A stretch of 64,000 nucleotides of DNA. It comes from Bacteroidales bacterium. GTDB taxonomy: Bacteria > Bacteroidota > Bacteroidia > Bacteroidales > UBA4181. Location: the NCBI GenBank assembly GCA_031275285.1, contig JAISOY010000082.1, positions 1 to 64,000 on the forward strand, written 5' to 3'. The translations under genes were made by a program, and so were the position numbers. Positions within the stretch are counted from its first letter, which is position 1. The number at the start of each line of letters is the position of its first letter. The notes beneath the pieces were generated by a model that was not told where the DNA came from, searched no databases, and worked only from the letters and a program-made list of their open reading frames with translations. Below, one piece after another: positions 43,407 through 51,264 of this stretch.

Positions 43407-45389
43407 ATGATTGATAGAAATACCATAGACCGGATTTTTGAAGCCTCACGTATTGTTGATGTGGTGGAAGAGTTTGTCTCCCTGAAACGCAGGGGGGTGA
43501 ATTATATTGGTTGTTGTCCGTTTCATAATGAACGGACGCCATCGTTTGTCGTATCTCCGGCTAAAAATATTTATAAATGTTTCGGATGTGGGAAAGCCGG
43601 TAATCCGGTGAATTTCATCATGGAACATGAGCATCTCAGTTATCCGGATGCACTGCGTTATCTGGCCAAGAAGTTTCATATCGAAATTGTAGAAAAGGAA
43701 CAAACCCCGGAAGAACAACAAATTGCTGACCGGAGGGAAAGCCTGATGATCGTATCGGCTTATGCATCCCGGGTTTTTCAGGAAAATCTTTTCGATACCC
43801 GTGAAGGGAAGGCTATTGGGTTGAGTTATTTTAAAGAGCGGGGCTTCCGTGAAGATATCATTAAAAATTTTGAACTGGGTTATAGTCTTGAAGCGCGGGA
43901 TGCGTTTACGAAGAAGGCTATAAAAGAGGGTTATAAAGAAGAATTCCTGATTGAAACCGGCTTAAGTATCAAAGGAGAGAATGCGGTTTTCGACCGTTTC
44001 TCCGCACGGGTGATGTTTCCTATCCATAGTCTTGCCGGGAAAGTGATCGCCTTTGGTGGTCGGGTGCTGAAAGCAGATAAGAAGCAGGCCAAATACCTGA
44101 ACTCTCCCGAATCTGACATATATCATAAAAGTAAAGTACTTTATGGTATTTTCCAGGCCAGAAGTAGTATTGTAAAAAACCAGAAGTGTTATCTGGTAGA
44201 AGGATATACCGATGTTATTTCCATGCATCAGGCCGGGATTGAAAATGTAGTGGCCTCATCGGGCACCGCATTAACCGTGGAACAAATACAACTGATCAAG
44301 CGGTTTACGGAGAATGTAACTGTCTTATACGATGGAGATCCGGCAGGTATCAAAGCGTCTTTACGGGGAATAGACCTGATCCTTCAGGAAGGAATGAATG
44401 TAAAGGTATTGTTGTTACCGGACGGTGAAGATCCTGATTCCTTTTCGAGGAAGCATAGTGTCACGGAGTTAGAAGAATACATCGGGAATCATGAAACGGA
44501 CTTTATCAATTTTAAAGCGCAATTACTGCTGGATGATGCACAGGGTGATCCGGTAAAGCGTGCCCGTTTGATCACGGAGGTTGTACAGTCTATTTCTCTT
44601 ATCCCGAATGCTATACAGCGATCGGTTTACCTGAAGGAGTCGGCCCGTATGTTCGATATGGATGAACAGATGCTGGCCGAAACGGCAGATACCATGCGTA
44701 AAAAAAAGATCAGTGACGAACGGAAACGGGAAATCCGGAAATCGGAAACAGATAGCCCACACCTTCCTTCTGACCTGGTGCCGGAAAATAATGCATCAAC
44801 GCTTTCTATTGACCCGGAACAGGTGCAACATCATAAAGATATTGAATTGGCTGAAGAGGAGATTATTCGTTTACTGGTAAGCTATGGGAATAATATATTA
44901 CCGGGTTGTGGTGAGTCGACCGGTGGGACGGGGTCTACTGTTGCTCATTACCTGATCCAGGAATTACGTTCCGATGACCTTGAAATCCAGGAACCGTTAT
45001 TGCGCAGGATATTTAATGAATACGAACAATTACTGGAAGAAAAAGAAAGTATTGATGATAAATATTTCATTTATCATGCTGACCCTGAGATATCCCGTAT
45101 GGTGGCTGGCTTGATGGCCAACAAATATGTATTGAGCAATATCCATAAAAAAAGCGGGGTGATTGTGAAAACCGAAGAAGATCACCTTGAAGAAGTTGTT
45201 CCTGTCAGTGTGCTGGCTTATAAAAACAGAAGAGTGATCATGTTGCTTAAAGATCTTTCTCTGGAAATGCAGAAGGCGGAAAAAGAGAACGATACGGAGC
45301 TTCTGGATGAATTATACGCCCGGTATATTTCACTGAATGAGATAAAGAAACAATTGGCCAAAATATTGGGAAAACGGATTGTCTATTAA
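43407..45389 (+). CDS. dnaG: DNA primase
   Basis: DnaG makes RNA primers for replication. The 660-residue protein begins with the zinc-binding domain (CPFHNERTPSFVVSPAKN then CFGCGKAG, residues 38-64), then the catalytic core with the Toprim acidic motifs (VEGYTDVISMHQAG near residue 267; LYDGDPAGIKAS near 311). A variable C-terminal helicase-binding region follows. The first copy of the 92-94 bp repeat begins 12 bases after the stop, its hairpin placed as a terminator would be. Confidence 0.97.
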   Translation: MIDRNTIDRIFEASRIVDVVEEFVSLKRRGVNYIGCCPFHNERTPSFVVSPAKNIYKCFGCGKAGNPVNFIMEHEHLSYPDALRYLAKKFHIEIVEKEQTPEEQQIADRRESLMIVSAYASRVFQENLFDTREGKAIGLSYFKERGFREDIIKNFELGYSLEARDAFTKKAIKEGYKEEFLIETGLSIKGENAVFDRFSARVMFPIHSLAGKVIAFGGRVLKADKKQAKYLNSPESDIYHKSKVLYGIFQARSSIVKNQKCYLVEGYTDVISMHQAGIENVVASSGTALTVEQIQLIKRFTENVTVLYDGDPAGIKASLRGIDLILQEGMNVKVLLLPDGEDPDSFSRKHSVTELEEYIGNHETDFINFKAQLLLDDAQGDPVKRARLITEVVQSISLIPNAIQRSVYLKESARMFDMDEQMLAETADTMRKKKISDERKREIRKSETDSPHLPSDLVPENNASTLSIDPEQVQHHKDIELAEEEIIRLLVSYGNNILPGCGESTGGTGSTVAHYLIQELRSDDLEIQEPLLRRIFNEYEQLLEEKESIDDKYFIYHADPEISRMVAGLMANKYVLSNIHKKSGVIVKTEEDHLEEVVPVSVLAYKNRRVIMLLKDLSLEMQKAEKENDTELLDELYARYISLNEIKKQLAKILGKRIVY

Positions 45390-45400
45390 TCATATCATAT

Positions 45401-45493
45401 TAAGCACTCAGTGCTATTTATTGTTTTCTTAAGTCACATGGATCAAATGGATTACGTTCAGAAAATATGATATTAATTGTTTTATATTACTTA
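45401..45493 (+). repeat. Intergenic repeat, copy 1 (93 bp)
   Basis: This is the first of three same-direction copies of one sequence in a 5 kb stretch. It begins TAAGCACTCAGTGCT, whose AGCAC/GTGCT arms form a small hairpin followed by T-rich sequence. It then shares with the other copies CTTAAGTC, GATCAA, TGGATTACGTTC and a final TTTTATATTACTTA. It starts 12 bases after the dnaG stop and ends 7 bases before the start of the GldB-like gene. The shared core does not stay in one reading frame between copies, so it is not coding. Confidence 0.88.
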
Positions 45494-45500
45494 TTTTAAA

Positions 45501-46478
45501 ATGAAGCATATAATTATTGCAGTTTTTTTTCTTCTTTTCTTTTTTTCCGGGTGTCGGCAGAAACAAGAAGTACAGATTAAGATAGGCCGGTTTGAACAGG
45601 CTTTGTTTTCCGTACCGATTGATTCGGTGGGGGAATATGTACCCAGACTGGAGAAACAGTATGGGGAGTTGTTCGATATGTATAACCAGGGGGTGATTTC
45701 GATCGGCCCTTCGAATGATCCGGATTACCCGGAACATTTGATGAATTTTCTGACCGATTCATACATGAATGCGGCTTATCGTCAGGTGACGAAAACCTAT
45801 CCGGATATGTCCGGTATAGAGGAGGGACTGAGTAAAGGTTTTTCAAAATACCATCAGTATTTTCCGGAAAAGGTGATCCCATCGGTGTATACATTGATTT
45901 CCGGATTCAATCAGACCATTATAATCAGTGATACTATACTGGCTATTGCACTGGATAAATACCTGGGGAAAGATGAAGAAATGTATATTCGTTTGGGTCT
46001 GGCCAGTTACCAACGGCAGTTGATGGACAAGAAATATATTGTTTCCGATTGCATGAAAGCCTGGGGATATACCGAATTCCCCAAAAGTGACTCTACCGAT
46101 AATGTTTTATCGAATATCCTGTATGAAGGAAAAATTGCTTATTATGTCAGCCAGGTGCTTCCGCAAACTTCCGATAGCATTATCTTTGGCTATAAACCTG
46201 AACAACTGAATTGGTGTATCAATAATACCCAACAGATGTGGACATATCTGGTGGAGAAAAAAATGTTGTATGCTACCGATTATCTGATCATCAATAAACT
46301 GGTGGGTCCCGGACCATTTACGACATTATTTACCCGAGAGTCTCCGGGAAGAGCTGCGGTATGGCTGGGATATAAAATCATACAATCATATATGAAACAC
46401 AATAAAGTTTCGCTGGAGGAATTGTTGTTGAATAATGATTACCAGGGTATCCTGGCAAAAGCGAAATTCAGGCCGTAA
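45501..46478 (+). CDS. GldB-like lipoprotein
   Basis: This resembles the gliding-motility lipoprotein GldB, a conserved Bacteroidota protein needed for GldK/type IX function in gliding species. I start it at MKHIIIAVFF (325 residues), giving a lipoprotein signal with cysteine 18 (FFFSGC). The longer frame begins inside the repeat. The mature part has the family pattern: an IGRFEQALFSV opening, a conserved LDKYLG segment near residue 155, and the C-terminal GPFTTLFTRESPGRAAVWLGYKIIQSYM. It is 5.4 kb from the secretion operon and converges on the SGNH hydrolase gene with three bases between stops. Confidence 0.82.
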   Translation: MKHIIIAVFFLLFFFSGCRQKQEVQIKIGRFEQALFSVPIDSVGEYVPRLEKQYGELFDMYNQGVISIGPSNDPDYPEHLMNFLTDSYMNAAYRQVTKTYPDMSGIEEGLSKGFSKYHQYFPEKVIPSVYTLISGFNQTIIISDTILAIALDKYLGKDEEMYIRLGLASYQRQLMDKKYIVSDCMKAWGYTEFPKSDSTDNVLSNILYEGKIAYYVSQVLPQTSDSIIFGYKPEQLNWCINNTQQMWTYLVEKKMLYATDYLIINKLVGPGPFTTLFTRESPGRAAVWLGYKIIQSYMKHNKVSLEELLLNNDYQGILAKAKFRP

Positions 46479-47828: not shown

Positions 47829-49691
47829 ATGCAAGAGATTCATTCGGTTTTAAAACATTATTGGGGGTATGCTTCTTTTCGTCCCATGCAGGAGGAGATC
47901 ATCCTTTCTGTACTGGAGAAAAAAGATACGTTGGCCCTGATGCCTACAGGCGGCGGCAAATCAATTACTTTCCAGGTGCCGGCTATGGCGCAGGAAGGGT
48001 TGTGTATTGTGGTTACTCCCCTGATCGCTTTGATGAAGGATCAGGTGGAAAACCTAAGGAAACGCCAGATAAAAGCTGTGGCGGTATATTCGGGATTGAC
48101 ACAGAATGAAATAGATGTAGCATTCAATAATTGCATTTTTGGCGGATATAAATTCCTATATGTATCTCCTGAAAGACTGCATACGGAGATTTTCCAGACC
48201 CGTGTCGCTCAGATGAATGTAAACCTGATCGCTGTTGATGAGGCACATTGTATTTCCCAATGGGGCTATGATTTTCGGCCGGCTTACCTTGAAATATCCA
48301 ATCTGCGTGAATTGTTGCCCGGGGTTCCGGTACTGGCTGTTACGGCAACGGCAACGCCTCCGGTGGTAGAGGATATCCAGAAACAACTCAGGTTCCGGGT
48401 TCCCCATGTGATACAAACCAGTTTCGAACGCAATAACCTGGTGTACCTTGTCCGTCATGTCGAGGACAAACAACGATATTTGCTGAAGACCATCGGAAGA
48501 TTTCCCGGAAGTGGGATTGTATATGTACGTAACCGGAAAAAAACGAGGGAAACGGCGCAATTCCTGCAACGTAATGGAATCGAGGCCGATTATTATCATG
48601 CGGGTTTAAGTAATGAGGTGCGCTCAGAGAAACAGGATCGGTGGAAGGAAGGGCTCTGCCGTGTCATCGTTGCCACCAATGCTTTCGGGATGGGGATCGA
48701 TAAGGCTGATGTCCGGTTTGTGGTTCATCTGGATGCTCCGGATACATTGGAAGCTTATTTCCAGGAAGCAGGCAGGGCCGGCCGGGACCTGAAAAGATCT
48801 TATGCCGTATTGCTCTATGAGACAGCCGATGAAAATAAACTCAGGCAGCGGTTGCGTGTCAGTTTTCCCGAACCGGACATGATCCGGAAAGTGTACCATG
48901 CATTGGGAAATTTCCTTCAGGTTCCCTTAGGCGGTGGGCGGGATATTCCCCTTGATTTTTCACTGGAGCGTTTTGCTGCTGTCTACCAGTTGGAATTGCT
49001 GACTGCCCATCATGCACTGAAGTTGATCGAGCAGGAGGGATACATCCAGTATGATGAAGATCCCAGATCGGCCGCCAAGGTTTTCTTTACCGTTTCCCGG
49101 GAAGACCTATACAAATTCCAGGTTTCCAATGAATCATTTGATCAGTTTATCAAACTGCTTTTACGTTCATACTCCGGTTTTTTTTCAGGATATGTCAGTA
49201 TTGATGAGGCAATTCTGGCCAGGAATGCGAAGGTGAGCCAGGATGTGATCTATGAATATCTGAAACGGTTGGACAAGATGAAGATCATTGATTATATCCC
49301 CCGGAGGAAGCAATCGGTCATTACCTATATCCGTGAACGGATCGATGAAAAATACCTGGCTATTTCTACCGGGAATTATAAGATCCGTAAGAAAAATATG
49401 CAGGAGAACATTGGGGCGGTGATCCGTTATGCCGGGAATCATGATCAATGCCGGAGTGTCATGTTACTGGAATACTTCGGGGAAAAGAACGCACTGCCGT
49501 GCGGGCGATGTGATTATTGTGTCCGGCAAAAAGAGAAAGAGATATCAGCCAATGAACGCGCGTCGATTATCAAGGCTATCCGGAACGAACCTCTTGCTGA
49601 TATCGATACCCTCAGCAAAAACCTGGGTATTAAAGAACATAAGATCATCGAGATACTGCGTCAGATGAAAGATGATGGGGAGATCAAATAA
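47829..49691 (+). CDS. recQ: ATP-dependent DNA helicase RecQ
   Basis: RecQ unwinds DNA in recombinational repair. The 620-residue protein has the Walker A motif PTGGGKS (K44), the DEAH box at residues 137-140, and the family motif VRFVVHLDAPDTLEAYFQEAGRAGRD. The zinc-binding cysteines (CRSVML...; CGRCDYC) are near the end. The C-terminal region is a short winged-helix-like tail with no clear HRDC domain, so it belongs to the shorter RecQ type. Copy 2 of the intergenic repeat begins 68 bases after its stop; a TACTTTTG box sits at 49740-49747 between them. Confidence 0.95.
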   Translation: MQEIHSVLKHYWGYASFRPMQEEIILSVLEKKDTLALMPTGGGKSITFQVPAMAQEGLCIVVTPLIALMKDQVENLRKRQIKAVAVYSGLTQNEIDVAFNNCIFGGYKFLYVSPERLHTEIFQTRVAQMNVNLIAVDEAHCISQWGYDFRPAYLEISNLRELLPGVPVLAVTATATPPVVEDIQKQLRFRVPHVIQTSFERNNLVYLVRHVEDKQRYLLKTIGRFPGSGIVYVRNRKKTRETAQFLQRNGIEADYYHAGLSNEVRSEKQDRWKEGLCRVIVATNAFGMGIDKADVRFVVHLDAPDTLEAYFQEAGRAGRDLKRSYAVLLYETADENKLRQRLRVSFPEPDMIRKVYHALGNFLQVPLGGGRDIPLDFSLERFAAVYQLELLTAHHALKLIEQEGYIQYDEDPRSAAKVFFTVSREDLYKFQVSNESFDQFIKLLLRSYSGFFSGYVSIDEAILARNAKVSQDVIYEYLKRLDKMKIIDYIPRRKQSVITYIRERIDEKYLAISTGNYKIRKKNMQENIGAVIRYAGNHDQCRSVMLLEYFGEKNALPCGRCDYCVRQKEKEISANERASIIKAIRNEPLADIDTLSKNLGIKEHKIIEILRQMKDDGEIK

Positions 49692-49759: not shown

Positions 49760-49853
49760 TAAGCACTCAGTGCTTTTTATTGTTTTCTTAAGTCACATTG
49801 ATCAACGTGGATTACGTTCGGCAAATATGACATTGATTTTTTTATATTACTTA
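49760..49853 (+). repeat. Intergenic repeat, copy 2 (94 bp)
   Basis: This copy has the best hairpin of the three, AAGCAC-TCA-GTGCTT followed by TTTATTGTTTT, which reads like an intrinsic terminator. The rest matches copies 1 and 3, with one extra base next to the TTGATCAA palindrome. It ends 11 bases before the start of the PqqD-like gene. Confidence 0.9.
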
Positions 49854-49864
49854 ATTTCATTGAT

Positions 49865-50152
49865 TTGAGTCAGAAATCAGCATTCGGAGACCAATTAATA
49901 CAGCGTCAGCCTGAAATGGTATTTAGCCGTATTGATGAGGAAGTCGTCATGATGAGTATTGAAACCGGAGAATATTATGGTTTGAACCCTGTCGCTACCC
50001 GTATCTGGGAATTATTGGAAAATCCGTTGACTTTTGATACATTGATCGATGCTCTTTTACAGGAATTTGATATTGACCGCGATACATGTTGCGAAGAGGT
50101 GGAGAGTTTTCTGAAAAAATTACAGGAAAAACGCCTGATCATTGTTATTTAA
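49865..50152 (+). CDS. Solitary PqqD-like protein (RiPP recognition fold)
   Basis: This 95-residue protein resembles PqqD-family chaperones, which bind the leader of ribosomally made peptides and present them to modifying enzymes. Visible features are the pattern FSRIDEEVVMMSIETGEYYGLNPVATRIWELLENPLT (the strands and first helix of the winged-helix fold) and a helical C-terminus with EVESFLKKLQEKRLI. The start is taken as TTG at 49865; an ATG at 49919 would remove the first strand. No radical-SAM enzyme, protease, transporter or precursor peptide lies nearby, so the partner is unknown. Repeat copies sit on both sides, and the TAA stop is the first three bases of copy 3. Confidence 0.82.
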   Translation: MSQKSAFGDQLIQRQPEMVFSRIDEEVVMMSIETGEYYGLNPVATRIWELLENPLTFDTLIDALLQEFDIDRDTCCEEVESFLKKLQEKRLIIVI

Positions 50153-50241
50153 GCACTCAGTACTATTTGTTTTTTCTTAAGTCGCATTGATCAAGTGGAT
50201 TACGTTCAGAAAATTTGACATTAATTGTTTTATATTACTTA
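50150..50241 (+). repeat. Intergenic repeat, copy 3 (92 bp)
   Basis: The most diverged copy: its hairpin arm has one change (GTACT instead of GTGCT), and the T-rich run is one base shorter. The CTTAAGTC, TGATCAA, TGGATTACGTTC and TTTTATATTACTTA blocks are kept. It begins at the stop codon of the PqqD-like gene. No gene starts after it on the + strand; lgt arrives from the other side. Confidence 0.88.
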
Positions 50242-50355: not shown

Positions 50356-51264
50356 TTAACGCTTCTTTTTCTTTGGTTTAATGCCGCTTTTTTCCTGTAC
50401 GGAAGGGGTATTGGTTGCCCTGCTGACATGTGTTAATGGTGTTGGCTGTTTGGGTCCGGGTTTCCCTTCGATGGGTCCGGGTTTTTCTTTCCGGCTACTG
50501 ATAATCAGTGAAGCAATTCCCATGAGGACGAACGGAACACTCAGCCATTGTCCCATGTTGAACAACATGGCCTTTTCAAATTCTTCCTGAGGATTTTTGA
50601 TGAATTCGATAAAGAAACGAAAAGCAAATATCATGATCAGGAACAATCCGAATATCAGGAATGGTCTCGGCCTGTTGTCACATTTGCGGTATACAAGTCT
50701 TAAAACAAAATAAGTGAACAGGTAATACAACGCTTCGTAAATCTGCGTCGGATGTTTGGGTACTGTCTCTCCTTCCCGTTCAAAAATAAATCCCCATGGC
50801 AATGATGTCTGGATACCATAAATTTCGGAATTCATCAGGTTACCCATCCTGATAAAGAACCCGGCAACACCGATTACGATCACTACCCTGTCCAGTGTCC
50901 AGATATAGGGTTTCTTTATTTTTCTTGAAAAAAGGAACAATGAGATAAGGATGCCACAGGCTCCTCCATGGCTGGACAAGCCACCTTTCCAGATGAAAAG
51001 GATTTCCAGCGGATTTTGCAGGTAATATTTCGGATGATAGAAAAAGCAATCGCCGAGACGTGCTCCGATGACTGTACCTAAAATCATGTATACCAGAAGC
51101 CTGTCGACTGTTTCTGCATCCATTTCTTTTTTTACCAGTTCTTTGAAAGCATAGAAACTGGCAATAAAGGCCATCCCGTATAATATACCATACCAACGAA
51201 CTGTCAGACTGCCTATACTGAATGCTTCGGGAGAAACATTCCAGTGAATGAATAAATCAAGCAT
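50356..51264 (-). CDS. lgt: Prolipoprotein diacylglyceryl transferase
   Basis: Lgt attaches diacylglycerol to the lipobox cysteine of prolipoproteins in the inner membrane. The 302-residue protein has about seven membrane segments, the essential GGLSSHGG motif (near residue 97) and the signature GFFIRMGNLMNSEIYG (near residue 135). The C-terminus carries an extra basic, proline-rich tail of about 40 residues (KPGPIEGKPGPKQPTP..., ending KPKKKKR), which the core enzyme does not need. The window encodes likely substrates, such as GldK and the GldB-like protein. Confidence 0.96.
   Translation of the reverse strand: MLDLFIHWNVSPEAFSIGSLTVRWYGILYGMAFIASFYAFKELVKKEMDAETVDRLLVYMILGTVIGARLGDCFFYHPKYYLQNPLEILFIWKGGLSSHGGACGILISLFLFSRKIKKPYIWTLDRVVIVIGVAGFFIRMGNLMNSEIYGIQTSLPWGFIFEREGETVPKHPTQIYEALYYLFTYFVLRLVYRKCDNRPRPFLIFGLFLIMIFAFRFFIEFIKNPQEEFEKAMLFNMGQWLSVPFVLMGIASLIISSRKEKPGPIEGKPGPKQPTPLTHVSRATNTPSVQEKSGIKPKKKKR

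Follow-up and report, generated by a model that had tools for sequence, protein, structure and literature searches.

The closest described counterparts of the gene examined here are the lasso B1 proteins, such as TbiB1 and TfuB1 (model NF033536). A W/Y/LxxP recognition motif has been reported for lasso RREs (PMC12710340). For the repeats on both sides of the gene the nearest described system is RUP of Streptococcus pneumoniae, a 107-bp element of ~108 copies that uses a TA target and is attributed to IS630-Spn1 (PMC2229807). Integron cassettes with their attC sites offer a further comparison.

We analysed a window of 64,000 nucleotides from a Bacteroidales bacterium (assembly GCA_031275285.1, contig JAISOY010000082.1, positions 1 to 64,000), in which a PqqD-family gene is framed by two copies of a short repeat. 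The gene is like the lasso B1 proteins in size, in RRE fold, in a sequence score above the family cut-off and in having relatives that adjoin B2, whereas here it is solitary, its B2 lies on another contig and its locus holds neither a cyclase nor a precursor. The repeat resembles RUP in length, copy number, AT-rich intergenic sites, a TA at both ends and presumed mobilisation in trans. However, RUP has 9-bp inverted repeats, and the element here has none but carries a small hairpin at its left end; a strong preference for stop codons further sets it apart from RUP. Integron cassettes share the direct-orientation repeats at gene ends, but the present repeat lacks attC core sites (by inspection) and a full-length palindrome, and it is dispersed in both orientations. 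Both the lasso B1-type RRE and the high-copy MITE-like element are of known kinds. We consider it likely that a lasso-type B1 gene split from its B2 and an independent family of TA-bounded MITE-like repeats are brought together at this locus by coincidence.

A predicted lasso B1-type protein

The first-pass annotation placed three ~94-bp repeat copies and a 95-codon PqqD-family gene in the window, all on the forward strand, and we located them at the same places. Copy 1 (45401-45493) starts ~10 bp past the end of dnaG (43407-45389) and precedes an ORF starting at 45501. Copy 2 (49760-49853), TA-bounded and MITE-like, lies upstream of the PqqD-family gene (49865..50152), and copy 3 (50150-50241) follows it; as annotated, the stop codon of the gene is the TAA with which copy 3 opens at its left end (50150-50152). 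Copies 2 and 3 share ~90% identity across ~94 bp, and the core pattern of the repeat matches the window three times against 0.12 expected. The most likely start codon is TTG at 49865, 11 nt after the end of copy 2, with ATT at 49859 as an alternative; the first in-frame ATG (49916) would remove the N-terminal strand of the protein.

The 95-residue product gives the single PF05402 match in the genome (E 1.5e-22); no other PqqD was detected there. It scores 84.0 bits against the lasso_PqqD_Bac model NF033536 (cut-off 80), to be compared with 82.4 for the protein of the congener G005 and 100.1 for that of G017. With the PQQ-type PqqD model TIGR03859 it reaches 25 bits against a cut-off of 46, and it also stays below the cut-offs of the radical-SAM-type PqqD models. 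A profile search of the PDB returned the solved lasso PqqD chaperone 9x90_B (1.9e-23) and TbiB1 (5.2e-21) far ahead of PQQ PqqD (1e-3). Fold modelling, which the annotation had proposed as a check, gave an AF2 model (pLDDT 81) whose best match is 5v1v, the lasso leader-binding protein TbiB1 with bound leader (E 1.5e-6, TM 0.76, 35% identity). Judged by these sequence and structure matches, the gene encodes a lasso B1-type RRE and not a radical-SAM-type PqqD. The view of the gene as a solitary peptide-binding module is thereby borne out, while the radical-SAM enzyme that had been named as a possible partner gives way to a lasso B1/B2 system. It seems unlikely that the protein works with a RiPP enzyme elsewhere, of radical-SAM type or other, rather than with a B2 peptidase: PqqD-fold proteins do serve many RiPP classes, but the radical-SAM-type and PQQ models are missed and the close relatives in G017, G398, G054, G339 and G090 adjoin B2.

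The protein ends in EKRLIIVI, where relatives have EKKLVVVF, EKKLIVKV and similar ends; that of G005 extends a few residues further. The product studied here is thus of normal length. Copy 3 therefore lies at the natural stop or no more than one or two codons from it, and has not visibly shortened the gene. The gene is under purifying selection relative to its G005 counterpart (dN 0.32, dS saturated).

A candidate B2 partner on another contig

The only PF13471 (Transglut_core3) match in the genome (44502-44801) lies on a contig other than that of the PqqD-family gene, within a lasso B2 leader peptidase gene (G000:C65:44487-44918, reverse strand). Its product scores 88.6 bits against the lasso B2 model NF033537 (cut-off 33), and the alignment shows the invariant Cys82 and His117. 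As we read the translations, the gene is flanked by one of RND type and one resembling TonB-dependent receptors, and neither a PqqD nor a cyclase or precursor stands beside it. It is therefore a plausible candidate for what the annotation had anticipated, a partner elsewhere in the genome without a PqqD of its own.

The PqqD-family gene belongs to the lasso B1 family, an intact B2 is present in the same genome, and most likely the two form a split B1/B2 pair, with the PqqD-family gene as its B1 member. We infer leader binding, the B1-B2 partnership and the substrate: the B1 protein, through its RRE, would bind the leader of a precursor and present it to B2, and the cysteine peptidase B2 would remove the leader. 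With the two genes on different contigs, their products would act in trans. Neither a lasso cyclase nor a precursor turned up in the vicinity of either gene or in 1.73 of the 5.54 Mb of the genome, a sample biased towards repeats, and precursor searches with the YxxP motif and with the KW..P motif of complete clusters gave nothing near B1 or B2. The pair is likewise split in G005, with B2 at a place common to G003 and B1 before DUF1573- and yajC-like genes. Divergence from G005 is equal for the two genes (dN 0.32 for B1 and 0.31 for B2, dS saturated).

We surveyed 393 Bacteroidales genomes, 41 of which have a B2 at E<1e-10, and tallied the distances by hand. PqqD and B2 lie within 1 kb of each other in 29 of the 41 and 2-5 kb apart in 3. 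They are on separate contigs in 7 (G000, the genome studied here, G044, G048, G058, G064, G157 and G263), although the split in G058 may be a contig-edge effect, and in the remaining 2 PqqD was undetected. Among the loci examined closely (L301-L320, L061 and L062), an Asn-synthase-type cyclase is nearby only in L062, L315, L318 and L320; B1-B2 more commonly has sulfotransferase and HPr-kinase-like genes next to it. Three of the four cyclase loci additionally carry an ORF that looks like a precursor, its leader being of the KWxxPxVExISI type, and these candidate lasso precursors of complete clusters (L315:7421-7576, L318:9426-9539 and L320:4511-4636) share the leader KWxxPx(L/V)E(V/I)xSI. Leaders of this type fit the W/Y/LxxP motif of lasso RREs (PMC12710340). 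In G017 (L061:5064-7983) a YidD-like gene and two related ORFs precede the PqqD-B2 pair.

A TA-bounded, MITE-like repeat family

The genome comprises 5.54 Mb in 225 contigs. A first look gave ~190 repeat candidates, and the 19-bp core of the repeat has at least 142 matches genome-wide against 1 for a reversed control. Our sample of the family holds 130 copies in 1.73 Mb taken around listed copies, and is accordingly biased to repeat-bearing contigs. Genes predicted with a home-made codon-usage filter leave 129 of the 130 copies outside and 1 inside a gene. From left TA to right TA the repeat reads TA-AGCACTCAGTGCTATTTATTGTTTTCTTAAGTCRCATTGATCAAATGGATTACGTTCAGAAAATATGACATTAATTGTTTTATATTACT-TA, with the left T and A conserved at 94 and 96%, the right T and A at 97 and 94%, and a W-T-TA-W target.

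The repeat thus shows several features of a MITE, being ~94 bp long, intergenic, high in copy number and devoid of a transposase. It has no terminal inverted repeats (score 8, equalled by 341 of 1000 shuffles), which is why we say that it works like a MITE rather than file it as one. A search through paralogous flanks for an empty site, which would show a TA duplication at the target, yielded no clean one; the sole candidate stops at the element and has no homology to the right flank. Transposition of the repeat is for this reason something that we infer, and we read the repeat as a RUP/ERIC-like MITE that would be mobilised in trans. Such a non-autonomous, TA-bounded element would have been amplified in this species by inserting in AT-rich gaps, often at or directly past stop codons.

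The repeat was undetected in eight congeners. It was also absent from viral contigs searched with the related 5'-end pattern and from plasmids searched with copy 2. Related elements in five other Bacteroidales/Bacteroidetes MAGs share the left end TAAGCACTnAGTGCTATTTAwTGTT with the repeat and resemble it at the right end but differ from it in between. These TA-bounded elements (L185-L258), many copies in each genome, come from Bacteroidetes bacterium 4572_117 and four GMC Bacteroidales MAGs. Possible kin of the repeat with other hairpin letters are seen in G030, G143 and G171.

The genome has a single IS630-type transposase gene (L099:12227-13306, reverse strand), apparently frameshifted and flanked by imperfect inverted repeats (19/25) next to TA. 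In the comparison with RUP, only the right end of the element weakly resembles that of this IS630-type element (16/25, p ~0.002 in one test), the left ends agreeing at just 11-12 of 25 positions. As the resemblance is confined to the right end, we rejected the IS630-type element as a proven autonomous partner. REP/RAYT identity was also rejected: Y1_Tnp genes are present, but their flanks are other palindromes. Each of these RAYT-like genes (L080-L083) occurs once, and the palindromic repeats around three of them bear no relation to the element.

Framing of the gene by two repeat copies

The left neighbour of the framed gene is recQ (47829..49691, forward strand), a name given in the annotation and consistent with the translation. 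The right neighbour is the convergent lgt ORF (50356..51264, reverse strand), whose congener orthologues share 67-78% identity. Only one of eight congeners, G005, has the PqqD-family gene, and there it lies at a different locus. Seven lgt loci in six congeners, covering ~1.3 to 6 kb of the 3' side, contain neither recQ nor pqqD. The gene is therefore not fixed between recQ and lgt, and a gene conserved at this position without the repeats, the observation that the annotation had set to overturn its proposal, was not found in the congeners. As the recQ-lgt adjacency is not conserved, pqqD has not been in this gap for long; there is no sign that the repeats carried it there.

The proposal was that repeat, gene and repeat form a cassette inserted or duplicated as a unit. 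Stated as a mechanism, copy 2, pqqD and copy 3 would be a composite mobile cassette of ~480 bp with TA-bounded outer ends, moved by a transposase acting in trans. We regard this as very unlikely. The outer ends are intact (TA-AGCAC ... TTACT-TA), the gene is known within the genus only here and at the other locus in G005, and recQ and lgt were not seen adjacent in the congeners. Nevertheless, a search for the same unit at other loci, as the annotation had suggested, found this one occurrence in the genome, and the repeats are dispersed and high in copy number. Pairs of copies less than 500 bp apart number 5, against 9-13 expected for random placement at intergenic TA (the range depends on the density assumed), and elsewhere repeat copies frame several unrelated genes, each once. 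Copies 2 and 3 rank only 26-30 of ~129 in each other's similarity lists, and G005 has the gene yet the repeat is undetected in its genome. With no excess of close pairs, and with copies 2 and 3 each closer to other copies than to one another, the frame is not a unit, and it is a coincidence of repeat density, not a cassette. One copy would have landed at the stop of the PqqD-family gene and another just upstream of its start. It is highly improbable that a pair of TA-bounded MITEs from a stop-codon-targeting family moves the RRE gene and so spreads the leader-binding proteins of lasso systems separately from their peptidases.

Repeat copies at stop codons

The left end of the repeat coincides with the stop codon of the incoming gene in 14 of 129 sampled copies (L064-L165) against 1.7 expected, and at most 20 nt downstream of a stop in 32 of 129 against 4.9 expected. 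Under the null, sites are spread evenly across intergenic TA; allowing for insertions that shorten a gene by a few codons might, as a rough estimate, about double the expectation, and the excess remains. In the related family of the other species (L185-L258), 9 of 31 left ends also supply the stop of a gene. A stop codon supplied by the repeat, as by copy 3, is characteristic of the family.

Such positions could also arise if the repeat were a functional regulatory element, a terminator or 3' UTR, kept at gene ends by selection, with copy 3 terminating pqqD. Besides the enrichment past stops here and the like pattern in other species, the left-end hairpin AGCAC-TCA-GTGCT followed by a U-rich stretch is in keeping with this role. 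We nonetheless find it doubtful: between same-direction genes the two orientations are even (40 vs 38), folding is no better than that of shuffled sequences (z -0.9), and changes in the stem broke pairing in 32 cases and were compensatory in 2. The element is moreover undetected in congeners and has no Rfam match. Insertion by a MITE-like element remains our preferred account of the repeats at gene ends.

Discussion

The locus as first framed is ordinary, and its value lies in the split pair and in the stop-codon preference of the repeat. The lasso pair, split and lacking a visible cyclase, is one part worth following: with B1 and B2 apart, and mostly without an adjacent cyclase, the pair would be missed by cluster-based genome mining. 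The other is a TA-bounded repeat family, present in several Bacteroidales, whose insertion at or after stop codons is far above chance. When the TAA of the repeat itself is used as the stop codon, insertion would be nearly harmless to the host gene.
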